Program-made: the position numbers and the translations under genes
NCBI GenBank assembly: GCA_014730175.1
Contig: WJIR01000280.1
Coordinates: 1-32,510 of the forward strand
Source of the DNA: Candidatus Zixiibacteriota bacterium
GTDB taxonomy: Bacteria; Zixibacteria; MSB-5A5; UM-FILTER-46-8
Length of the DNA: 32,510 nucleotides
Reading direction: 5' to 3'
Shown: one piece after another, positions 14,557 through 29,456 of the stretch
Layout: each line of letters opens with the position of its first letter
Position numbering within the stretch: position 1 is the stretch's first letter
The notes under the pieces: generated by a model
The model's input: only the letters and a program-made list of their open reading frames with translations
Database searches by the model: none
Told to the model about the DNA's origin: nothing

Positions 14557-16191
14557 ATGAGTAAAGTAATCTTGATCACGGCGACGCTGGGTTTGGTATT
14601 TGCCGGTAGCGTATGGGCTTCGTCCCCGGGAGATACGGTGGGTACTACTTACTATGATATGCAGAACGAGATTTCAGCCGGTAGCCGCATTGTGGTGGAC
14701 TCCGAAGGCGGGTATCATATAGTGTGGATGAAAGCGAACGCAGCCTATGATAACCGAGCGGTCTACTACAATTTTATTGATGAATCCGGAAGTAAGCAGC
14801 TCGGGGACGGGACTTCCGTGAGTTCTACGTCAGGAGCCGGTTTTCCTTCGGTTGATGTCCTCAGCAGCGGGAAAGCGGTGGTTGCATATCATAATTCCAA
14901 CAATAATGATGTGAATTTTGCCAAAGATGGGGCTCGTGGAACCGGGCTATTCACTTTAGTCGATGTTCCGGACACGTATCCTGCCCATGAAACAGCATAC
15001 TGGCCTAAGATGGCGGTGGACGGCAATGGTAGAATTCATGTTCTGTCGACCGTCAATTTCGGAATGACCAACTGGTGGACTCCGTTTATTTATACATATT
15101 CGACCGATAACGGATCCAACTGGGAGGATGTGGCGCTTGTGGATACACTTTTGATGCAGTCTCCGCATCCGGTATGTTCCCGAACAGGCGGAAAAACAGC
15201 ATTTGTATACGGACGTCCCAGAGATATAGAAGCCGATCTCGATTGGTATGATGCTGATATGTACTATATTGAATCCGCCGATGGATCCACCTGGGATTTC
15301 AGCAGCAGAGTCAACGTAACCAATTATCAAAACGATGATACCTACAGGGTATGGACTGATTGGGATGGAATGTATGACAATGATGATAACCTCCATATTA
15401 TCTGGAGCGCAATTGTCTATGATTATGATACGGGCAATGCATCAACCGACTCTTGCGTATTATTCCACTGGTCCTCAGCGACAGGTATCGATACGGTGGC
15501 GACCGCTTTGGAGGTCGCATATCCATCGTACTGGGATTTAGCCATAGCCAAAGTTAATCTCGGCATAGACGCCAATGATAATCTATTTGCCCTATGGACC
15601 AGATACAGCGCTTCGGACACTTCCGATGATGGTTACTCCAATGGAGACCTTTACTTCGCCTATTCAACCGACAACGGAGACAGCTGGTCTTCTGCGACTA
15701 ATATCACCGACAGTCAGACCCCGGGGTGTGCGGCAGGCGATTGCGATTCGGATCATTGGGCAAGCATGGCTGAGGTTGTCGATGAATACCTTCATATAAT
15801 GTACATCCACGACACTGACGCCGGCGCGGCAGCCGGTTCCAACGAGGGTGACACAACAGCTTGCCAGGTACTGTATTATCCGCAACCGAATCCGATATGG
15901 GTCGGTATAGATGAGGATGAGCCGATTGTAGATTACGAACTCCGGTTGAGAAACTACCCCAATCCGTTTAATAACTCGACTATATTCGAATTCCCGATGA
16001 CACGGGAGGCGGAATTATCGATATACAATATTAGAGGAGAGTTGGTATTTGAGGCGGATGCTTCTAAGAAATCCAGCATTGCCTGGGATTCCGAAAATCA
16101 AGGAGGCAAATCCCTGGCAAGTGGGGTATATTTCGCAAGGTTCACCACCAAAGACTACGCTCTTAACAGGCGAATTGTGATGGTCAAGTAA
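14557..16191 (+). CDS. Secreted sialidase-like propeller protein with T9SS sorting domain
   Basis: A 544-residue exported protein. Residues 1-21 are a signal peptide (ending VWA). The body has repeated strands with Asp-box motifs STDNGSNWED (about 182-192) and STDNGDSWSSA (about 370-380), plus IVVDSEGGYHIVWM and MAVDGNGRIHVLS, typical of BNR/sialidase-like beta-propellers. The catalytic arginine triad of sialidases is not evident, so it is more likely a binding or structural propeller. A sorting domain follows from about residue 465 (LRNYPNPFNNSTIF) to the end (NRRIVMVK). A strong GGGAGGAG lies 4 bases before the ATG. A good terminator follows, so it is probably monocistronic. Confidence 0.85.
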   Translation: MSKVILITATLGLVFAGSVWASSPGDTVGTTYYDMQNEISAGSRIVVDSEGGYHIVWMKANAAYDNRAVYYNFIDESGSKQLGDGTSVSSTSGAGFPSVDVLSSGKAVVAYHNSNNNDVNFAKDGARGTGLFTLVDVPDTYPAHETAYWPKMAVDGNGRIHVLSTVNFGMTNWWTPFIYTYSTDNGSNWEDVALVDTLLMQSPHPVCSRTGGKTAFVYGRPRDIEADLDWYDADMYYIESADGSTWDFSSRVNVTNYQNDDTYRVWTDWDGMYDNDDNLHIIWSAIVYDYDTGNASTDSCVLFHWSSATGIDTVATALEVAYPSYWDLAIAKVNLGIDANDNLFALWTRYSASDTSDDGYSNGDLYFAYSTDNGDSWSSATNITDSQTPGCAAGDCDSDHWASMAEVVDEYLHIMYIHDTDAGAAAGSNEGDTTACQVLYYPQPNPIWVGIDEDEPIVDYELRLRNYPNPFNNSTIFEFPMTREAELSIYNIRGELVFEADASKKSSIAWDSENQGGKSLASGVYFARFTTKDYALNRRIVMVK

Positions 16192-16497: not shown

Positions 16498-19400
16498 ATG
16501 GGAATCCCGTTGGGGACAAAAAGTAAGGTTATATGCCTGTTTCTTTGTCTCTTACTAACCAGTGTTCTTGGGAACTCTGTTTATGGGGCAGTAACCGGTC
16601 AGATAACCGGAACCGTAACCGATAAGGAGACCGGCGAGCCCTTGCCCGGTGTTACCGTACTGATCAAGGGAACTCAGATCGGAGCGCCAACTGATTTTGA
16701 TGGAAACTATCGAATTCAGAACGTGCCGCCCGGTGAGTATGAGTTGGTAGCCACATTGGTAGGTTACGCGCCGCTGACTTATACCGAGGTGCAGGTTAGT
16801 ATCGACAAGACAACAACGATCGATTTCGAGTTAACCACCGAGGCTCTCGAGATGGAAGAGGTTAAGGTGGTTGCAAAGCGTAAACCGATTGAGCAGCGAG
16901 TTACATCCAATGAGGATGCTATTGGTGCTAAGGAGCTGGATGTTATTCCGGTGAAGGACACTAAGGGTATCCTGGCAACTCAGGTCGGTTTCGTTAAGAG
17001 AGGAACGCAATTACATGCCCGGGGTGGTCGCGCCGGCGAGGTGGTTTTCCGGGTGGACGGAGTTGATACCAACGACCCATTAGGTGTGAACTCCCCGCGT
17101 ACATCAGACACGCGTGTTCAAGACCAATCGGGAAGATCGCTTGAGAAAGCCGAATCACCATATTTAAGTATGGATGTCTCATCGAGTGATATCGCTGAGA
17201 TTTCCATTATCAAAGCCGGTTGGCCGGCTGAATATGGTAATCTCCAGTCGGGTTTGATCAACCTCGCTACTAAAGAGGGCGATGCCAGGTTCACCCGCGG
17301 AGAGATTGAGTACATTACCGATGATTTCGGATCCGAGACGCTCAACAGGTATTCGTTTAATTCCGATCGTCTGGATGCGAGTTTGTCCGGCCCTGTTCCT
17401 CTGGTTCAGGATGTCTTATTTCCCAAGTTGGGTTTGGAATTCCCCGGCGAGAGTTTTGCATATTATGCCTCAATATCGGTGGATAAGAGCGATACTTACA
17501 CCTCTTATTCCGAGTACGCTCCTCCGGGACTAAAACCTGATTGGGGAAGAGAGGAGAAGGTATGGGATGTTTTCCGATTGGATATTCCTAATCGGCAGTA
17601 CAATGCATATAAGACCAGTTTGAAATTTACATATAAGATTGATGCGGCGCGTAAGCTGAATCTTAGTTATAAAAGGGACTGGAGCGATTTTATAGACTGG
17701 GATTGGGATTGGAAATATACTCCGGAAACCGCGCCCCGTCAGGAAACCTGGTCGGAATTGTATCAGATCTATTTCACCGATAAACCGGGCTGGATAAAGA
17801 ATACATTTTATGAATTTCAGGTTTCGAAATACACCATCGCGGCAACGAGGAAACCAGGTGGTTTGACTCCCGGCGACTTTTTGTTTTTTGACGAATACGA
17901 GGAGTTTGAGCCGGCAGATGATACGAACAAGAACGGGCAGTGGGATCCTGCGGAGCCGTACATAGATACCAATGGGAACGGCGAGTACGATTTCGGCGAA
18001 CCTTTTTCCGATCTGGATGGCGACGGTATCTGGGATGATGCGGAAAACTTCACCGACACGAATGACAACGGCGTTTTCGATCCGGATAGAGCATCGATTG
18101 TCGAGCCCGACGATCCGGAACCCTTTATCGATGGCGACATAATTATTGGAGAACCATATATAGACATAAACCGCAACCATATTTATGATGAAGGCGTGGA
18201 TATATTTACCGCAGCCGATGATTTGAACGGCAACGGTAAGTATGATGGGCCTAACGATCCCTGGACTCCGGGTGTACCGTACCAGGATCTCAACAGGAAC
18301 GGTGAGTATGATCCTCCCGACCAGATTTATAACCCGGGAGAGCCGTATACGGACATGAATAACAACGGTAGATGGGACGGAACCGATTTGTTCTTCGATT
18401 ACGGTTTCGACCGTCGTGCTACCTACAGTCATCGTCGTTCCGACATCTATACCATTAAGTTGGACGTTACCACTGCGCCAAATCAGCATCACGATATGAA
18501 AACCGGGTTCGAGTATAAGTTCGTCAAGATGCGTATGGCGGACCTTCGCTATCCATGGGCTCCTTACGTTGGACCTCCCGATGAGGGCGAACCATGGAGC
18601 GAACGAGGCATTTTCCGTGATTTTTACTGGAGAACCCCCAAGCAGGGAGCGCTCTATATTCAGGATAACATGAGTTACGGCGAAATGTTTTTTAACATCG
18701 GATTCAGATGGGATTATTTCCTGCAAGCTGACGAGGTGCATGCCATAGAATCTGAGGAGGGCGTCTATTACGGTGAAGAAGAAGTCCAGGAAAACCGGAA
18801 TAAATTCTCACCGAGACTGGGCGTATCATATCCGATATCCGATAAGGCGAAGGTTTACTTCAACTACGGCCATGCTTATCAGTTACCGGAGTACTATAGG
18901 TTCTATGCCAGAGCGACACAGAATATCGGTTCGGGCGCATTGCCGATCGTGGGTAATACCAATTTGGATTATTCCAAGACTGTGCAGTATGAGTTAGGAA
19001 TCGAATATCTAATAACGAACGCTTATAAGCTTAAAGTATCCGGTTTCTACAAAGACCAGTATGGTTTGATAAACGTGATCGAGGGTATAGGAAGACTGGC
19101 GGCTGACCGTTATGGTAACCTCGATTATGCCCGCGCCAGAGGATTCGAGCTGGAGCTATCCAAGGATATCGGAGACTATCTTACCTGGGGCGGTAAATAT
19201 GAGTATTCTTGGGCTTTCGGAAAGGCATCCAGCGGAACCGCCGATTATTACTTGAGAGCCGACAACCAGCAGATTCCTCTTAAGGAATCGCGACTTGACT
19301 GGGATATCCGACATCAGGCGACTATAGACGCAACCCTGCGTGTCCGAGAAGACGATCACCCGGTGGTGGCGGGAATTAAGTTGCCCGATGCCTGGGGCGC

Positions 19401-19761
19401 CAGCGTGATATGGCAGGTGAATTCCGGATTACCGTTCAGCCCATCGGCTGCTTATCCCGGGATTGTCTTGATCGGTAATCAGGATCCGCCGGCTAATTCG
19501 GAAACGATGCCGGCATATTCCAATGTCGACCTCAGGTTGTATAAAGACTTCAGGGTCAGCAAGCTTGATTTGACATACAGCATCTGGATTACGAATCTAT
19601 TCAATAAGAAAAACGTTTCTAACGTCCATTCCGATACCGGTCGACCGGACACATCGAGACTGGCGGATCGTGTTATCGTAACAGGAACAGATCATGACGC
19701 CAATCCGGCAAACTGGTATCCGGGCAGGAATGTTAAAATGGGTTTGATAGTAAGGTTTTAA
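16498..19761 (+). CDS. TonB-dependent receptor with CarboxypepD_reg domain and acidic calcium-site-like insert
   Basis: A 1087-residue outer-membrane receptor. After a signal peptide (1-31) comes a CarboxypepD_reg domain (about 33-118: GQITGTVTDKETGEPLPGVT ... TIDFELT), a plug (about 120-260, with RGGRAGEVVFRVDGVDTNDP and GWPAEYGNLQSGLINLATK) and a barrel ending MGLIVRF with the expected terminal Phe. Residues about 475-635 are an inserted string of DxNxNGxYDxGEP-like units (DTNGNGEYDFGEP, DLDGDGIWDD, DTNDNGVFDP, DLNGNGKYDG, DLNRNGEYDP, DMNNNGRWDG), which look like dockerin/EF-hand calcium loops and probably form an extracellular loop. The ribosome site AAGGAGGT, 5 bases before the ATG, is near-ideal. 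It is first of a four-gene operon; the substrate is unknown. Confidence 0.93.
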   Translation: MGIPLGTKSKVICLFLCLLLTSVLGNSVYGAVTGQITGTVTDKETGEPLPGVTVLIKGTQIGAPTDFDGNYRIQNVPPGEYELVATLVGYAPLTYTEVQVSIDKTTTIDFELTTEALEMEEVKVVAKRKPIEQRVTSNEDAIGAKELDVIPVKDTKGILATQVGFVKRGTQLHARGGRAGEVVFRVDGVDTNDPLGVNSPRTSDTRVQDQSGRSLEKAESPYLSMDVSSSDIAEISIIKAGWPAEYGNLQSGLINLATKEGDARFTRGEIEYITDDFGSETLNRYSFNSDRLDASLSGPVPLVQDVLFPKLGLEFPGESFAYYASISVDKSDTYTSYSEYAPPGLKPDWGREEKVWDVFRLDIPNRQYNAYKTSLKFTYKIDAARKLNLSYKRDWSDFIDWDWDWKYTPETAPRQETWSELYQIYFTDKPGWIKNTFYEFQVSKYTIAATRKPGGLTPGDFLFFDEYEEFEPADDTNKNGQWDPAEPYIDTNGNGEYDFGEPFSDLDGDGIWDDAENFTDTNDNGVFDPDRASIVEPDDPEPFIDGDIIIGEPYIDINRNHIYDEGVDIFTAADDLNGNGKYDGPNDPWTPGVPYQDLNRNGEYDPPDQIYNPGEPYTDMNNNGRWDGTDLFFDYGFDRRATYSHRRSDIYTIKLDVTTAPNQHHDMKTGFEYKFVKMRMADLRYPWAPYVGPPDEGEPWSERGIFRDFYWRTPKQGALYIQDNMSYGEMFFNIGFRWDYFLQADEVHAIESEEGVYYGEEEVQENRNKFSPRLGVSYPISDKAKVYFNYGHAYQLPEYYRFYARATQNIGSGALPIVGNTNLDYSKTVQYELGIEYLITNAYKLKVSGFYKDQYGLINVIEGIGRLAADRYGNLDYARARGFELELSKDIGDYLTWGGKYEYSWAFGKASSGTADYYLRADNQQIPLKESRLDWDIRHQATIDATLRVREDDHPVVAGIKLPDAWGASVIWQVNSGLPFSPSAAYPGIVLIGNQDPPANSETMPAYSNVDLRLYKDFRVSKLDLTYSIWITNLFNKKNVSNVHSDTGRPDTSRLADRVIVTGTDHDANPANWYPGRNVKMGLIVRF

Positions 19762-19771
19762 AGATAGGTGA

Positions 19772-19802
19772 AATGATGGGCTCCTTGCCGGAGCTCATCA
19801 TT
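19772..19802 (+). promoter_or_regulatory. Intercistronic hairpin between receptor and next gene
   Basis: AATGATGGGCTCC (19772-19784) pairs fully with GGAGCTCATCATT (19790-19802), with one G-U pair, around TTGCC. No T-run follows, so it is unlikely to be a strong terminator. It may protect the receptor mRNA 3' end or lower expression of the downstream genes. Confidence 0.75.
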
Positions 19803-19832
19803 CGAGTTCCGATGAAGTTAGGGAGATAATAT

Positions 19833-22490
19833 ATGAGTTTCGTAAGAAGAAAATATCTAAAGCCAGCTTACCTTGCGCTGCCGCTTCTTCTTATGGCGAT
19901 TGTGCTTACTGCCGGGGACGGCTATGGTAGGACTATGCCTAAAGACAGAGGTTTTAAACTGCAGAAACCGGCTTTGGATGTACCGAACACTACAAATGTA
20001 ACCCACAGGATTTCCAATATCTGGTTCACTGTAACCAACTGGGGTTATTTGGGCAGCGCTCAGGATCCCAATATCCTTGACTGCGAAACGGGAGAACCGG
20101 CGCCTTCGTGTCAGTTCCCGGCCGGTTCGCATCTGGAGTATCTCTTCCAGGGAGCCATCTGGATCGGCGCTATCGTTGACGGAGATACGCTGGTCTCGTG
20201 TGGAACGGATGGCTGGTGGGATACGCACGAATTCTTCCCGGATAAATTCGGTGGGGGCGAAGCGGATTGCTCTACGGATTCAACCGGAGCAATCTGGTTG
20301 GGTTCAACCAGACCGGCTACCGCTTATCCTCGCAAGTTGCCCGAGGGGAGTGAAGACTGTTACCCTTGCACGATTTCCGTTGAGAATTCTATTTCCGAAG
20401 AGGATTTCATAGCTTATTACGCCGATACCAATGTTACATTTGCTGAAGTTGACCCAATAGACCAGAGGCCGCTAAGACCGATCGGTTTGGAAATCGAGCA
20501 AAAAAGCTACTCCTGGTCGTACGAATACGCCGAGGATTTCATCATATTCGATTTCAAAATAACAAACATCTCTGATTCACCCATTGAAGATATGTGGATT
20601 GCATTCCATATCGACGCAGATGTTCATCATGAAAGCAACGGATTTTCCGGAGCTCAGGATGATATGACAGGTTTTCTTGAAGTGGCAAAACCGATCGAGA
20701 ACATCGATCCCCTGGATATTAATACCGCCTATATTATGGATAACGACGGCGATCCGTCTGAGGACTGGGCATGGGATTATGAATCGGTTAGAGGTGTCAC
20801 CGGAGTTAGAGTAGTAAGAACACCGGGAGATGTGGAGATTGGCTTTAACTGGTGGATTTCCAACATCAATTCACAGTTTGACTGGGGACCGCAAAGACTT
20901 GAGAATTACTCCGGAACCTACCCGGGTGGCGGAAGAGGAACTCCGGGAGGTGATCCTGCGCGGTATAGAGCTATATCAAACAACGAATTTGACTATGACC
21001 AGGCATTCGCTGCCATAAACTACTCGGCTGACGGTTGGATTAATCCGCTTGGATCGGCTATTGCGAAGGATCTGGCTAACGGGTATGATACGCGTTATAC
21101 TTATTCCTTCGGTCCGTTCGACCAGATACTTCCCGGGGATTCACTGCTATTAACGGCAGCTTATGTTGCCGGTGAAGATTTGCATGCCAATCCCAGGGAC
21201 TTCAATAATCTATTCTTGGGCAATGAGGAAAATGAAGAGGATATCCAAACCTTCATAAATTCATTGGATTTCAGCGATTTCGCGCTTAATGCCACCTGGG
21301 CGGAATGGGTGTATGACAATCCCGGCGTGGATACTGATGAGGACGGTTATGCCGGTGAATTTATTTTGGTCAGCGGGGATACAATTTGGATAGAGGGCGA
21401 TGGCGTTCCCGATTTCGCCGGTCCTCCGCCGCCTCCTTCGCCGGAACTAACATTCGACACATATTTGAACAGAGTCGATCTACGCTGGGATGGCGAGATT
21501 TCCGAGTACACACCAGATGCGTTCGGCAACGGCCTGGATTTCGAAGGCTACAAAGTGTACCGGTCAAGAACCTCCGTTTTAAACGATTTTGTTCTTCTCG
21601 GTTCTTTTGATCGAATAGATTACGACCGGTATATCTGGGATGATCTGGACGGTAAAATGGAGCTGAGTAAAGACAAGCCATGGTCACTGGAGGAGCTATT
21701 GGAATACGCGAATGCGGATAGCCCGTTACCGGGCGACACTTTCGAATTCGATAATGGAATGAAAATTCACCGTAACTTTGCGGTCGCTCATCAGCCGCCG
21801 TATACTCCCACCAGAGTTCCGACCATCAACGGTAATCCGGTCTTCCGTCCCCATGCTGAGAACACCGGATGTTACGAAGATAGTACATACGGTCAGGACA
21901 CCGATGGGGATGGCGTTACTGATGACGAACTGACTATTCGTTCAGAAATACTCGACAGCACGATCGTTGTTACCGATAGTAGCGGCACCAAGAATATCCA
22001 TTATTATACCTATGCACTTGATGGAGTGCTGCCAAGCGTAGCGTACTTTTACTCGGTGACAGCCTTCGATGTTGGCGACCCGCGTACACAACTCGCTCCG
22101 CTGGAGGGTTCGAAAGCGGTCAATATGAGAGCCGCTTATGCGATCGATGATTTCGATAAAGTAACCGAGGATGTTTATGTTTATCCAAATCCTTATGTTC
22201 TGGACGGATCATACCGCGAAGAAGGATGGGAGGACTTAAACGAGGATCCCGCTTATTCTCAGAGGATATACTTTGCGAACCTGCCCGGCAAGTGCACTAT
22301 CAGGATATTTACGCTCGATGGAGATTTGGTTGATCAGATACCTTTCGATCCGCAACCGGGAGTTGACCAACCGATCACGAGCTGGGATCTGATTTCCAGG
22401 AATACTCAGTCGATAGTTTCAGGTATATATTTGTTCAGTGTCGATTCGGAGGAGGGGCGTCAGATCGGGAAGTTCGTGATAATCAAATAA
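19833..22490 (+). CDS. Large secreted protein with T9SS-type C-terminal domain
   Basis: An 885-residue exported protein. The N-terminus has basic residues then a hydrophobic stretch (PAYLALPLLLMAIVLTAG), a signal peptide ending near residue 32. The body is rich in aromatic and acidic residues, with no enzyme motif I recognise. A fibronectin-like stretch (about 545-600: PPPPSPELTFDTYLNRVDLRW...GYKVYRS) and a DTDGDGVTDDE calcium-like loop (about 690) are present. The C-terminus contains VYVYPNPYVLDGS (about 783) and ends SGIYLFSVDSEEGRQIG plus KFVIIK, a sorting domain of the FlgD-Ig-like type with YPNPY in place of NYPNPFN. GGGAGA before the ATG supports the start. It is second in the receptor operon, suggesting it is a surface partner of the receptor. 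Confidence 0.82.
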   Translation: MSFVRRKYLKPAYLALPLLLMAIVLTAGDGYGRTMPKDRGFKLQKPALDVPNTTNVTHRISNIWFTVTNWGYLGSAQDPNILDCETGEPAPSCQFPAGSHLEYLFQGAIWIGAIVDGDTLVSCGTDGWWDTHEFFPDKFGGGEADCSTDSTGAIWLGSTRPATAYPRKLPEGSEDCYPCTISVENSISEEDFIAYYADTNVTFAEVDPIDQRPLRPIGLEIEQKSYSWSYEYAEDFIIFDFKITNISDSPIEDMWIAFHIDADVHHESNGFSGAQDDMTGFLEVAKPIENIDPLDINTAYIMDNDGDPSEDWAWDYESVRGVTGVRVVRTPGDVEIGFNWWISNINSQFDWGPQRLENYSGTYPGGGRGTPGGDPARYRAISNNEFDYDQAFAAINYSADGWINPLGSAIAKDLANGYDTRYTYSFGPFDQILPGDSLLLTAAYVAGEDLHANPRDFNNLFLGNEENEEDIQTFINSLDFSDFALNATWAEWVYDNPGVDTDEDGYAGEFILVSGDTIWIEGDGVPDFAGPPPPPSPELTFDTYLNRVDLRWDGEISEYTPDAFGNGLDFEGYKVYRSRTSVLNDFVLLGSFDRIDYDRYIWDDLDGKMELSKDKPWSLEELLEYANADSPLPGDTFEFDNGMKIHRNFAVAHQPPYTPTRVPTINGNPVFRPHAENTGCYEDSTYGQDTDGDGVTDDELTIRSEILDSTIVVTDSSGTKNIHYYTYALDGVLPSVAYFYSVTAFDVGDPRTQLAPLEGSKAVNMRAAYAIDDFDKVTEDVYVYPNPYVLDGSYREEGWEDLNEDPAYSQRIYFANLPGKCTIRIFTLDGDLVDQIPFDPQPGVDQPITSWDLISRNTQSIVSGIYLFSVDSEEGRQIGKFVIIK

Positions 22491-22538
22491 AAACTCTGGA
22501 GATATAGGTTGCAAAATTTAGATAAAAAGGAGAACGCT

Positions 22539-23489
22539 ATGAGATTAATAACGGTAGTTGCCCTTGCCGTACTTCTCTTACCTACGCTTGCTTTCGGACA
22601 GGCAAAGGTTGGTACAGCCGGCGCACAGTTTTTGGAGGTAGGTGTGTCAGCGCGTGCTATGGGTTTGGGCGAAGCCGTCATTGCAAGTATAGATGACGCC
22701 TCCGCTCTCTATTATAATCCGGCGGCGATAGCTGAGTTCGATCGATACAAAGCTATGTTTACTCATATACAATATCCAGCCGAGATTAACTATGAATTCG
22801 CCGGATTGACCATGCCGGTTGACTATCTTATGGGAAACATCGGATTGTCATTCTACATGCTTTCTACCGATGACATGCCTGTTACTACCTATAAGCATCC
22901 CACCGGAAACGGTCAAACGTTTCAAGCAAAGGATTACGCTTTCGGTTTAACTTATGCCTCGGCGCTCACTCAGCATTTCAGCATAGGTTTCACCGTAAAA
23001 TATTTAGCAGAATTATATCATACATACAAAGCGGACGGATGGGGCGCTGATGTTGGAACTTATTACAACACGGGTTTCCGCAATCTTAAAATATGCATGA
23101 TATTGAAGAATTTCGGACCTGATTTGAAATTCATCGAGGAAGAGTATCCTCTTCCTATCGACTTCAAATTCGGCACGGCGATTGATTTAATTCAGGGTCC
23201 TGCTCACCGGATTATCTTCTCTGCGGAATTGAGCCATCCGAATGATAATCTGGAAAAATACGCTGCCGGTTTAGAGTACTGGTTTAATGATTTGGTAGCC
23301 TTGCGTATCGGAAAGAAGTATAATCAGGACTATTACGATGATCTATCGGCATTTTCCTCGGAAGGAATGACTTTCGGAGGCGGATTGAAATCCGATATAT
23401 CTAACTTCACTGTGCTCGTAGACTATGGTTATCAGGATTTTGGCTATCTTGATGAAACCCATAGATTCTCACTTGGTTTGGAATTTTAA
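22539..23489 (+). CDS. PorV/PorQ-family outer-membrane protein
   Basis: A 316-residue outer-membrane barrel with signal peptide MRLITVVALAVLLLPTLAFG. The mature start is typical of the PorV/PorQ (UPF0164-like) family: GTAGAQFLEVGVSARAMGLG, then EAVIASIDDASALYYNPAAIA. In T9SS, PorV is an outer-membrane shuttle for sorting-domain substrates, while PorQ and related proteins have less clear roles. The protein ends in alternating strands with FSLGLEF and a C-terminal Phe. The open frame reaches a TTG at 22509, but AAGGAG 6 bases before the ATG at 22539 and the signal peptide fix the start there. It lies 48 bases after the secreted protein, in the same operon. It may serve the proteins of this operon specifically rather than be the cell's general PorV. 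Confidence 0.88.
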   Translation: MRLITVVALAVLLLPTLAFGQAKVGTAGAQFLEVGVSARAMGLGEAVIASIDDASALYYNPAAIAEFDRYKAMFTHIQYPAEINYEFAGLTMPVDYLMGNIGLSFYMLSTDDMPVTTYKHPTGNGQTFQAKDYAFGLTYASALTQHFSIGFTVKYLAELYHTYKADGWGADVGTYYNTGFRNLKICMILKNFGPDLKFIEEEYPLPIDFKFGTAIDLIQGPAHRIIFSAELSHPNDNLEKYAAGLEYWFNDLVALRIGKKYNQDYYDDLSAFSSEGMTFGGGLKSDISNFTVLVDYGYQDFGYLDETHRFSLGLEF

Positions 23490-23514
23490 CGATTTACCGG
23501 AGGTAAAATAGAGG

Positions 23515-25296
23515 ATGAAATTGCACCGAATTTATTTATTCATTCCGTTAGTGCTTATAGCCGCCGGGTTGTATTTTGGCGGATGCTCGGAGTTAGATCT
23601 CCAAGGATCCCTTGAAACTAATACCCCTCCGGTGGTTGCATTTACTAACATTCCCAATGACTCATCTCGGTATTCCTACAACCCGAATTTAACCTGGTAT
23701 GGAACCGATAAGGATGGTACGATAGAAGCATTCTATTATACTGTTTTAATGAAGCCTGATAATGTTAGTGACTTTCCCGAGGAATTTGCCGACTCCGCAA
23801 CTATGCCGCCTGATGATTCATGGACAATGGTGGAAACGTCTAACGATACGGTTAGCTTAAGCGCCCCCGTCGATCCAGATGAGTACGATAGTCTGTACAT
23901 ATTCATCACGGCAATGGACGATGATAGCGCATATTCCGAGATTAAGTTTAAACTGTTCTACAGAAATAATCACGCTCCGGATACTTATTTGGAGTCTGAT
24001 CTGGATAGAATCTGGTATACCTATCCTTATCTAACTGATTATTACAAAGGTATCCCGATCGAATGGTCCGGAAGCGATTCCCTGGATTTCCCGGATCAGG
24101 AACAACCCGCATTTGAATACCATTGGCAGCTATTCGGTCCGTTCGACACCCTCGAAAACGACCCTGCTTACATTACTATGGATATGCTACATCCGGATAG
24201 CGTTTACGAAGCATACGATTCAACCATTAATGAAATGGTTCGCTGGGAATCATACGATACCTTAAATAACGACGTATGGGTTAACGATGAGGACCTTACT
24301 CTTTATAACCTGCGAACAGGCCATTATATCTTTTGGGTAATGGCAAGGGACGATGCTTCCGTTATCGACAGCGTCTATCTTAAGGAAGATGGAAGCTTCC
24401 AATCCATGGCTGTATTTCATGTATTGCAGCCATATTGGAATTCCGGAAATGATTCCTTGAAGAAGATACTGGTATTTGACCATTCAGCATATGGCACTTT
24501 GCCGGGTGAATGGGGAGACGGTGACAGCGTCCAGACATTTTACATGAATATGTTTGCCGAATTGGGACTTGATAATGAGGATATTACCTGGAGAGGAGGG
24601 TTGAACTCAAATTCTGCCGCTCCTCCGGATGTAGCCGAACTGGTAAAACATGAGATGTTATTGGTTCTAAACGAGGATTGGTTCTCCCGAGTAAGTGATT
24701 CCTCCGTTGTCTGGTATATAGAGTATCTGAATGTTACCGGTAAAGTCTTTGTAATGGGTAGGCATTCCTTCTGTACACTGACAAGAGGCAGTATAGCTCC
24801 CCTGACAGAAGTAATATTCGGTTTCGATAACGGAGATAACTTAGCAGGTAATTATGCTGCTGACTATTTCGATCTCTACAGCGCAACCTACCCGGGCTTC
24901 ACTGTCGGAGAGTACAATCAGGAGTTAACAGGCGCTATCAGCGTGCACCCCGATTTTCCTGAATTGAGTATTGATACACTTAAGGCAATCGAGGTTGCCG
25001 AGGGATGGTACGAGGAGAATAACACTTATCTCCCCGCTGTTGAAATAATGGCGAGAGGCGGAGATTCGGAGACGATTTATAACTTCGAATCCTATCAACC
25101 GCAGATTTCTGCGTACCATGGCTGGCCTATTGCCACCAGAGCTTTGATAACCATGGGAGGAACGACCGTGGACGGAATGTCGGAAAGGACAGCATTCCAG
25201 ACCTCGTATTTCTCCTTCCCATTATTCTATGTTGAATATGAAGGTGCAGTTGAGGCGATGGGAGAAATGCTTGAATGGTATGGAATATTGGAATAA
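23515..25296 (+). CDS. Predicted surface lipoprotein with Ig-like domains
   Basis: A 593-residue protein with a lipoprotein signal peptide: hydrophobic IYLFIPLVLIAAGLYFGG followed by Cys24 (GGCSELD). Residues about 38-155 form an Ig/fibronectin-like module (PPVVAFTNIPND ... WYGTDKDGTIEAFYYTV). The middle (about 160-310) is a second such region. From about 318 the segment KKILVFDHSAYG ... LVKHEMLLVLNEDW suggests an alpha/beta (flavodoxin or amidotransferase-like) domain, without a catalytic Cys-His pair that I can identify. It is the last gene of the receptor operon, 25 bases after the PorV-like gene. By analogy with SusD-type partners it could be an accessory of the receptor, but it has no SusD sequence motifs. 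GGAGG precedes the ATG. Confidence 0.8.
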   Translation: MKLHRIYLFIPLVLIAAGLYFGGCSELDLQGSLETNTPPVVAFTNIPNDSSRYSYNPNLTWYGTDKDGTIEAFYYTVLMKPDNVSDFPEEFADSATMPPDDSWTMVETSNDTVSLSAPVDPDEYDSLYIFITAMDDDSAYSEIKFKLFYRNNHAPDTYLESDLDRIWYTYPYLTDYYKGIPIEWSGSDSLDFPDQEQPAFEYHWQLFGPFDTLENDPAYITMDMLHPDSVYEAYDSTINEMVRWESYDTLNNDVWVNDEDLTLYNLRTGHYIFWVMARDDASVIDSVYLKEDGSFQSMAVFHVLQPYWNSGNDSLKKILVFDHSAYGTLPGEWGDGDSVQTFYMNMFAELGLDNEDITWRGGLNSNSAAPPDVAELVKHEMLLVLNEDWFSRVSDSSVVWYIEYLNVTGKVFVMGRHSFCTLTRGSIAPLTEVIFGFDNGDNLAGNYAADYFDLYSATYPGFTVGEYNQELTGAISVHPDFPELSIDTLKAIEVAEGWYEENNTYLPAVEIMARGGDSETIYNFESYQPQISAYHGWPIATRALITMGGTTVDGMSERTAFQTSYFSFPLFYVEYEGAVEAMGEMLEWYGILE

Positions 25297-25353: not shown

Positions 25354-25387
25354 ATAGAGGAGGTTTAATAGCTTAAACCTCCTCTAT
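25354..25387 (+). terminator. Long hairpin, probable terminator of the receptor operon
   Basis: ATAGAGGAGGTTTAA (25354-25368) and TTAAACCTCCTCTAT (25373-25387) form a perfect 15-base stem around TAGC, followed by CATTTTG. The T-run is short. It lies only 24 bases before the next gene, so it could also control that gene. A smaller six-base hairpin (ATGGTG/CACCAT) precedes it at 25325-25343. Confidence 0.7.
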
Positions 25388-28061: not shown

Positions 28062-29456
28062 TTATTTCTGAAGCACTAATTTCTTAACAGCTATTTTATT
28101 GTTAGCCTTAATCTTACAGAAATAAATTCCGCTGGAGGCTTCCTGCTCTTGATTTGTCATTCCTGACCAAACAACCGATATATTACCGGAGTTTTGAAAT
28201 CCGTTCATCAAATTGGCGATTCTCTGTCCCCGAATGTTAAAGATGTCTATTTGTACATTCCCGGGTTCAGCCAACTGAAACGAAATCTGTGTGGTTGCAT
28301 TGAACGGATTGGGATATGCGTTGAATGTTGTTATCGACTCGGGAACTGAACCTACCGCTCTTGCGGGTTCTTCCGCCTTCTGGAATTCAAACATATCCCA
28401 GGCATAAGCGATATCGGGATAGGTTCCTATATAAGAATAAAACTTATAGTCACCAGCGGGAGCATGGCCGGGAACGTACTGGCTTATCTCAACATATTTC
28501 TGAGATTCCAGCGGCTCCATGTGGACTTCCCATGATTTAAGAGTTTCTTCTCTTTCACCATCCGGGAATTCCACAACAGTCCAGACATTGAAATCCCTGG
28601 TCATTTCCGTCCGGTTTTTCACATATCCCTGCCAGGTTACAGTGCCGCCTTCGGGAGGAATGATGTAGTCCCCGGGGGGAAGAGTCATATCAACATCTGC
28701 CTCAGCATCCTGGAAATTCCTGAGATATATCTTCTGTCCCTGCAAAACTTCTTTGGTGTCCTGGTCCTGAACAAAGACAGCAAATCCCGTGTATCGTTTG
28801 GGTATAAAAGTCGGTAAGCTGAAAGCTCTGTGATATGTTAAGGTGTCTCCCTCGTCAATTGATAAGGGTTTACCGCTGGCATTGGGTAGAAAATCAAAGA
28901 CTGTTTTATTATGCCAATTAAGACCATAATAATCTTCATAATAAGCGCTGTCACGGAATGCTACCGCGTGTAACCTAAGATTGCCATCCGGAATCGGTCC
29001 GGTTGCTATGATGTCAATATCAAGAACCCCGGTCCGCTCTTCAACTAAGTAATATCCTCCTAAGTTTATCTCGAGATCAGCAGGTACTCCGAATCTCTCA
29101 AGAAGCATATCCTCCCAAAGCCACCAGGTGTTCTCCCCAAGCTCGCCATCAAATGCGGTCTGGGGTAGAAATCCAACCATGTAATATGCGATTTTTACTT
29201 CCAGTTCTTCCGGGATATAATTATAGAACGGATCCTCGTCATCCGGAAAGCCTGTATGGTATCTAATTAGAACCATTTGATCCGAATGCTCTTCGTAAAG
29301 GGTGTCGCATAAAAGATCCGCCTGATAAGAAGAATGGCAACGGGTGTTAGTAAATAGCTCTTGTACAACGATTCTTTCAGTCGCGGATGCGGGAATCACC
29401 ATCATAATCCCTAAAAGCAACGTAATCACGAAAACCTTAAGCAGTTGATTTGACAT
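28062..29456 (-). CDS. Secreted Omp28-like protein with T9SS sorting domain
   Basis: A 464-residue exported protein. The signal peptide ends at PASA (about 25). Residues 27-240 resemble the Omp28/thioredoxin-like fold (ERIVVQELFTNTRCHSS ... MVLIRYHTGFPDDEDPFYN ... YYMVGFLPQTAFDG), but the usual CxxC is lost: Cys40 is followed by HSS, with another cysteine at Cys50. Residues about 270-365 form a beta-sandwich module like that in the neighbouring gene. The sorting domain begins at about 383 (FNAYPNPFNATTQI) and ends KKLVLQK. GGAGGT lies 9 bases before the ATG. Thiol redox activity is doubtful without CxxC. The role is unknown; Omp28-type proteins are surface proteins of FCB bacteria. Confidence 0.82.
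   Translation of the reverse strand: MSNQLLKVFVITLLLGIMMVIPASATERIVVQELFTNTRCHSSYQADLLCDTLYEEHSDQMVLIRYHTGFPDDEDPFYNYIPEELEVKIAYYMVGFLPQTAFDGELGENTWWLWEDMLLERFGVPADLEINLGGYYLVEERTGVLDIDIIATGPIPDGNLRLHAVAFRDSAYYEDYYGLNWHNKTVFDFLPNASGKPLSIDEGDTLTYHRAFSLPTFIPKRYTGFAVFVQDQDTKEVLQGQKIYLRNFQDAEADVDMTLPPGDYIIPPEGGTVTWQGYVKNRTEMTRDFNVWTVVEFPDGEREETLKSWEVHMEPLESQKYVEISQYVPGHAPAGDYKFYSYIGTYPDIAYAWDMFEFQKAEEPARAVGSVPESITTFNAYPNPFNATTQISFQLAEPGNVQIDIFNIRGQRIANLMNGFQNSGNISVVWSGMTNQEQEASSGIYFCKIKANNKIAVKKLVLQK

Follow-up and report, generated by a model that had tools for sequence, protein, structure and literature searches.

A conserved four-gene unit of the Zixibacteria encoding a TonB-dependent receptor, a type IX-tailed protein, a PorV-family barrel and a predicted lipoprotein

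The 32,510-nucleotide contig WJIR01000280.1 of a Candidatus Zixiibacteriota bacterium (assembly GCA_014730175.1), referred to below as the window, carries four adjacent genes that form a well-supported conserved unit, retained in almost every known genome of the Zixibacteria and of a second phylum. Their products are a TonB-dependent receptor (TBDT), a secreted protein that ends in a diverged type IX secretion system (T9SS) tail, an outer-membrane barrel of the PorV family and a predicted lipoprotein. The second and fourth proteins are termed SORT and LIPO, labels coined in this analysis; other family names are those of the libraries. The likeliest reading, which we judge about as likely as not to be right, is that the quartet constitutes one outer-membrane, TonB-driven uptake complex that works like a SusCD utilisome, with a surface partner arriving via the T9SS. 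The features are, in window coordinates:

16498-19761, + strand: TBDT gene, 1087 aa; carboxypeptidase-regulatory-like N-terminal extension, plug-like region and barrel
17863-18417, + strand: TBDT insert with DxNxNGxxD calcium-loop-like repeats, aa 456-640 of the receptor
19833-22490, + strand: SORT gene, 885 aa secreted protein; glycoside hydrolase (GH)-like β-sandwich, FN3-like β-rich region and T9SS tail
22170-22487, + strand: SORT C-terminal domain (CTD), a diverged T9SS sorting domain, YPNPY...GDLV...RNxQ...SGIY...GKFVIIK
22509-23489, + strand: PorV-family outer-membrane barrel gene, 326 aa counted from TTG
23515-25296, + strand: LIPO gene, 593 aa predicted lipoprotein (Cys24); two Ig/FN3-like domains at about aa 35-305
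24451-25293, + strand: LIPO C-terminal ThuA/GATase/GIFT-like domain, aa 313-593

The four open reading frames (ORFs) lie on the same strand with intergenic gaps of 71, 18 and 25 bp. Together with the family profiles they confirm the order receptor, sorting-domain protein, PorV-like protein and lipoprotein that had been proposed in a sequence-only reading of the window. For the barrel, the ATG at 22539, which gives a signal peptide, is likely a better start than the TTG at 22509.

Conservation of the gene unit

Gene order was followed in LIPO loci from 53 of 58 relatives, located by a single-sequence search and including the genome of the window (the remaining five contribute no LIPO locus), with the four families placed by profile on all six frames. 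PorV stands directly before LIPO in all 39 Zixibacteria loci with at least 1.2 kb upstream, and in all 33 that reach at least 8 kb upstream a TBDT is linked ahead of PorV-LIPO. Of these 33 loci, 21 have SORT between TBDT and PorV; one of the other 12 has a SORT 6.4 kb away, and eight of the 12 come from one family, related genomes not being independent. By profile, LIPO is matched in 130 of 132 Zixibacteria genomes at E 0.001 (128 at E 1e-10), including all 78 of good quality, both misses being incomplete genomes. It is likewise found in 38 of 39 genomes of the second phylum (26 of 27 of good quality), and at E 1e-10 in 24 of 254 genomes labelled only 'same domain'.

The five strongest LIPO-matching genomes outside the Zixibacteria comprise two from the second phylum (G138 and G286) and three labelled only 'same domain'. 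Each has all four families at one locus, in the exact order in two cases; in two others TBDT and SORT are separated by an additional lipoprotein, with more genes ahead of LIPO in one of these, and the fifth has PorV after LIPO. A further 36 second-phylum genomes gave 25 loci with at least 9 kb upstream, of which 21 have the order TBDT-SORT-PorV-LIPO and the remaining four have SORT, PorV and LIPO. Across all 36 loci, SORT and PorV co-occur in 32, and in 27 of those SORT precedes PorV by no more than 500 bp. The claim that the genes form one unit is thus borne out; the order, far from being unique to this contig, brings the four families together in two phyla and three further 'same domain' genomes. 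The position of SORT between TBDT and PorV is probably the ancestral state, its loss from 12 Zixibacteria loci having come later.

The second-phylum loci also show additions. An extra lipoprotein of about 650-675 aa lies between TBDT and SORT (L259 1938-3878, L260 6220-8244; gaps of about 2.1 kb in L270-L303), and many loci have about 5 kb inserted beside PorV, which in L259 comprises a sorting protein of 1312 aa together with an ORF of 202 aa.

The genes flanking the quartet are variable: homologs of the AlkZ-like gene and of one that we take to be MiaB-like are each found in 0 of 51 related loci, and the upstream BNR-type protein in eight of 51. Because these neighbours vary while the four genes persist, the unit goes beyond chance. 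The component proteins share a history, with Mantel r of 0.86-0.95 and none of 2000 permutations as high (27 loci for TBDT, PorV and LIPO, 17 for all four).

The BNR-type sorting protein is encoded at 14557-16191, upstream of the TBDT, and its relatives stand three in tandem in L115. Another sorting protein, at 28065-29456, matches the Omp28-related selenoproteins below the threshold (E 2.8e-7). A GC-rich hairpin with a T run was seen by eye between the upstream gene and the TBDT, unlisted by the pattern scan, and that scan found a hairpin of 15 bp, trailed by a weak T tail, 3' of LIPO (25354-25387). The promoter scan stayed at chance level (18 found, 17.6 expected).

Components of the quartet

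The receptor matches the barrel profile PF00593 (E 1e-29) and the carboxypeptidase-like extension PF13715 (E 1.8e-24), and 20 aligned quartet TBDTs are 35-79% identical to it. Against the SusC/RagA profile TIGR04056 it scores 80.6 bits, far below the cut-off of 368. SusD (PF07980) is absent from its own genome and from 19 of 20 genomes, including all 18 of good quality, the Bacteroides control being positive. The earlier view that the quartet differs from SusCD units therefore stands. The insert at aa 456-640 holds five to nine DxNxNGxxD motifs in all 20 receptor sequences and is the receptor's most conserved stretch, 26% of its columns reaching 90% or more, compared with 12-20% in the receptor's other regions. 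At least three loops occur in all 12 receptor frames of more than 1000 aa from outside the phylum, versus three of 56 unrelated long proteins; the motifs are absent from the receptor paralog on contig 1 (C1) of the same genome. These loops would be expected to bind calcium and to sit extracellularly. Outer loops are usually the most variable part of a receptor, and the conservation of this insert in spite of that suggests that it either meets a constant partner or serves the structure of the protein. Contig 1 (L029, 2298-12050) carries a second TBDT-PorV-lipoprotein cluster, consisting of a partial SORT relative, a 676-aa sorting protein, a 477-aa lipoprotein, a 923-aa TBDT without the repeat insert, a PorV and an NHL lipoprotein.

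The body of SORT has no match in sequence searches of Pfam, NCBIfam and PDB. Its structure model (predicted local distance difference test, pLDDT, 75.8) contains a GH-like β-sandwich at about aa 50-530 followed by a β-rich, FN3-like region. The sandwich is matched with a VIA Z-score of 19.1 to the N-terminal part of a dextran dextrinase (262 residues aligned, r.m.s.d. 3.2). Its matches to this enzyme and to the N-terminal regions of GH94 and GH116 enzymes span Z 17-19, and it lacks their catalytic domain. At its C-terminus a T9SS tail is present, as the name sorting-domain protein in the sequence-only reading implied, although its TIGR04183 score of 15.7 bits falls below the curated cut-off of 23 (T9SS_PorZ E 4e-4). 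At E up to 0.1, TIGR04183 matches 11 of 21 SORT members; of the curated models, those of the PorZ and PorU tails come closest. A passage of PMC11285876 describes the tails of PorU and PorZ as not removed, and a PorZ/PorU-like tail was considered as a sign of an uncleaved anchor; that sign was weakened, as ordinary sorting proteins of the window match the same models.

Two tail profiles were compared, one built from 14 linked SORTs and one from ordinary tails. The former gives medians of 122 bits for 13 held-out linked SORTs and 131 for 98 unlinked ones, the ordinary-tail profile reaching only 15 and 20, and 22 held-out ordinary tails show the reverse pattern; common descent of whole SORT proteins would give the same outcome as a separate signal class. 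The 43 ordinary tails were chosen by a pattern requiring an SG-Y motif, and the frequency of SG[IL]Y among them is so by construction. At 25 bits or more the SORT-tail model has 168 matches, of which 166 are SORT proteins. Judged by these profiles, the SORT tail is a diverged class of T9SS CTD in its own right; this class, the repeat insert of the receptor and the resemblance of modelled LIPO to the levan-utilisome lipoprotein (below) are new here. SprA scores above cut-off in 19 of 20 genomes and PorU in 17, the window's own genome being positive for both, and SORT is presumably exported by the T9SS.

In a tree of 125 SORTs the linked proteins cluster, with seven changes against 24.7 expected, and 82 unlinked ones fall in one supported group; the set omits partial, short, long and low-scoring SORTs and 16 duplicates, and one row (L106) has masked residues. 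Genomes in which SORT has left the locus have a median of 18 SORT matches, versus eight otherwise, these being match counts for which no more than 16 candidates were scored in any genome and the L125 SORT at 6.4 kb was left out. Some SORT paralogs form tandem arrays, the largest of five genes, away from any TBDT or PorV (L203, L214, L191 and others). By record title, the best 80 of 395 SORT relatives almost all belong to the Zixibacteria; the others include one 'Ignavibacterium sp.' isolate and a few records of the FCB group and GN15.

The barrel scores 207 bits against the PorV family profile NF033709 (E 5e-61, cut-off 90), 65.3 bits against the T9SS_OM_PorV equivalog NF033710 (cut-off 250) and 108.2 against the PorQ equivalog (cut-off 220). 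A profile of its orthologs matches the solved PorV 6h3i (E 8.9e-22). It is 43-80% identical to 36 quartet PorVs elsewhere, and its best own-genome paralog reaches 34% over the full length. The gene is not the sole PorV-like one in its genome, where the family is matched at 20 places, nine above cut-off, and it is separate from the general PorV locus, with 26% identity to the PorU-linked PorV of contig 192. The PorP/SprF profile TIGR03519 has no match in the genome, but the control was silent too, so that this is no proof of absence. With SORT adjoining PorV in 21 of 33 Zixibacteria loci, and at most 500 bp before it in 27 of 32 second-phylum loci, it is plausible that the quartet PorV carries, delivers or anchors SORT; the 12 Zixibacteria loci that keep TBDT, PorV and LIPO without SORT, and the 98 of 125 sampled SORT relatives with no neighbouring TBDT or PorV, speak against it.

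The PorV adjacent to PorU (contig 192, L031 6757-9384; L246-L249, L251-L257) is unusually built. It is 859-1053 aa long in all 12 complete loci, and a long insert interrupts its barrel close to the N-terminus; this insert includes a regulator-type β-propeller (the window's own genome and five of six others scanned). The insert contains LysM in some cases and has weak PorZ matches, so that the protein looks like a natural PorV-PorZ-like fusion. An M6-like inactivated metalloprotease homolog with a sorting tail lies 3' of it in each of the 12 PorU loci that reach this far. Contig 211 (L035, 6491-8362) encodes a 624-aa PorV-family barrel with TPR-type repeats, and the gene immediately before it encodes a sorting protein of 1543 aa or more.

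LIPO has a lipobox but no match in sequence searches of Pfam, NCBIfam and PDB; Cys24 is invariant in 24 of 24 sequences. Its structure model (pLDDT 82.1) comprises two Ig/FN3-like domains and a ThuA/GATase-like domain. The C-terminal domain is matched with VIA Z-scores of 14.0 to the N-terminal domain of IFT52 and 13.3 to the ThuA-like 4jqs, and at Z 11.0 over 206 residues to chain 8aa2_G of the levan utilisome, which is taken, from its length, for the levan glycan-binding lipoprotein. That surface glycan-binding protein, SGBP-lev, is described in part of PMC7618045 as having two Ig-like domains and a ThuA-like last domain. By its model and folds LIPO has the same make-up: a lipid anchor, two Ig-like domains and, last, a ThuA-like one. 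Among aligned orthologs the ThuA-like domain has no invariant Cys or His, and it is therefore probably not an enzyme. The near-invariant W61, W103, W184 and W588 lie outside this domain or at its very end.

A proposed TonB-driven uptake complex and its rivals

We infer the contacts between the four proteins, their surface position, the ligand and the direction of transport as follows. SORT would cross the outer membrane through the SprA translocon, be received through its diverged CTD by the quartet PorV-family barrel and be held at the cell surface beside the TonB receptor. There SORT, with its glycosidase-type β-sandwich lacking a catalytic domain, and LIPO would capture a ligand and pass it to the TBDT, which would import it using TonB energy, and the repeat insert may serve as a calcium-stiffened docking platform. 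As the locus is near-universal and single, the ligand is more likely to meet a need common to nearly all members than to be one special polysaccharide. An extension of this proposal is tentative, and we would sooner doubt than assert it: the SORT tail may be a third T9SS cargo class in addition to type A/PorV and type B/SprF, served by the quartet PorV as a shuttle of its own, and the quartet may be a hybrid TonB/T9SS core outer-membrane machine in at least two phyla.

Several observations weigh against the uptake complex. SORT is not beside PorV in 12 of 33 Zixibacteria loci, where PorV-LIPO-TBDT is nevertheless retained, and 98 of 125 sampled SORT relatives have no adjacent TBDT or PorV (those at contig ends counted as unlinked). 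Among aligned orthologs the ThuA-like domain of LIPO has no conserved aromatic binding site. The acidic-residue rule for surface lipoproteins lends no support to exposure of LIPO, two acidic residues within six after the Cys being found in eight of 45 lipobox orthologs. The structural matches involve modelled domains of widespread fold types, and the near-universality is also compatible with an envelope-assembly role.

That last role is the strongest rival, because the barrel and LIPO are an unbroken pair and the locus is near-universal, though we consider it doubtful. Here the PorV-like barrel, of the FadL superfamily, and LIPO would act as BamG and BamH do and, with the TBDT, mature surface proteins, SORT being a client. 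The pair is unbroken in 39 of 39 loci and survives the loss of SORT, the quartet is vertically inherited, genomes whose locus has lost SORT contain more SORT matches (median 18 versus 8), and BamG, a FadL homologue, is described in the text on it in PMC12578637 as binding the lipoprotein BamH. Against this, the barrel is of the PorV family by profile and probably not BamG-like, the TBDT architecture is ordinary, and outside the Zixibacteria SORT is still found between TBDT and PorV. Still less probable is a secretion pair only, in which PorV is a shuttle for SORT-type tails, as SprF is for type B, and the TBDT and LIPO are an unrelated importer in the same operon. The SORT-PorV adjacency in 27 of 32 second-phylum loci and the separate CTD class agree with such a pair, as does the case, in a section of PMC12618676, of one orphan shuttle with several unlinked cargoes in F. 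johnsoniae; the linkage of the TBDT to PorV-LIPO in 33 of 33 loci, even without SORT, argues otherwise.

Two further explanations seem to us very improbable. That the order is kept merely because these groups preserve old gene order would account for the Mantel correlation, which vertical inheritance alone would yield, but the flanking AlkZ-like and MiaB-like genes are not retained (0 of 51) and the unit is kept across phyla, all four genes being retained even where others are inserted. That the receptor moves protein outward, like Oar of Myxococcus, is about as remote. Its N-terminal extension and length are those of Oar-type TBDTs, and it has a weak match to PF25183, a family that we take to be tied to Oar. 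The Oar precedent itself is described in the relevant part of PMC6434023. However, SORT has a T9SS tail, the T9SS is present, and nothing links the receptor to export.

Comparison with known systems

Literature searches of open-access full text listed no paper on a TBDT-SORT-PorV-LIPO unit, and the near-universal retention of the quartet in two little-studied phyla suggests an undescribed core surface complex. If an uptake complex of this kind is confirmed, a core surface complex linking TonB import to type IX secretion would be common to two whole phyla, and the function of TBDTs in lineages without SusD would be explained. Were the hybrid machine also real, a surface protein placed by one energised system would serve the transporter of another. 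The quartet would be a clean single-locus target for the surface biology of the Zixibacteria, and makes it testable whether one PorV serves every T9SS cargo or PorV paralogs are separate routes.

With the T9SS attachment pairs PorU-PorV and PorQ-PorZ the quartet shares the pairing of a CTD-bearing secreted protein with a PorV/PorQ-family barrel, for which PorQ-PorZ offers a precedent in the account given in PMC5562754; unlike them, it stands at a separate locus and includes a TBDT and a lipoprotein. The barrel gene follows the cargo gene directly, as in SprB-SprF and other type B cargo/PorP pairs, whose barrel and cargo are presented as cognate in parts of PMC12618676 and PMC9143113. Its barrel, however, is of the PorV family and not PorP/SprF, and the SORT tail appears to be a diverged relative of type A. 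BamG-BamH of the β-barrel assembly machinery (BAM) complex of Bacteroidota similarly places a FadL-type barrel beside a surface lipoprotein scaffold, to which the quartet adds a linked TBDT and a T9SS-tailed protein. Oar/PopC of Myxococcus xanthus resembles it in having a long TBDT with an N-terminal extension and a secreted protein, but the PopC route needs no T9SS. Finally, as in SusCD and the levan utilisome (SusC, SusD, a GH and an SGBP), a TBDT with a carboxypeptidase-like extension is joined by a lipoprotein, and LIPO shares the domain order of SGBP-lev. The quartet differs in having a T9SS-tailed protein and a PorV barrel in place of SusD, and in being one near-universal locus where SusCD systems are many substrate-specific loci.

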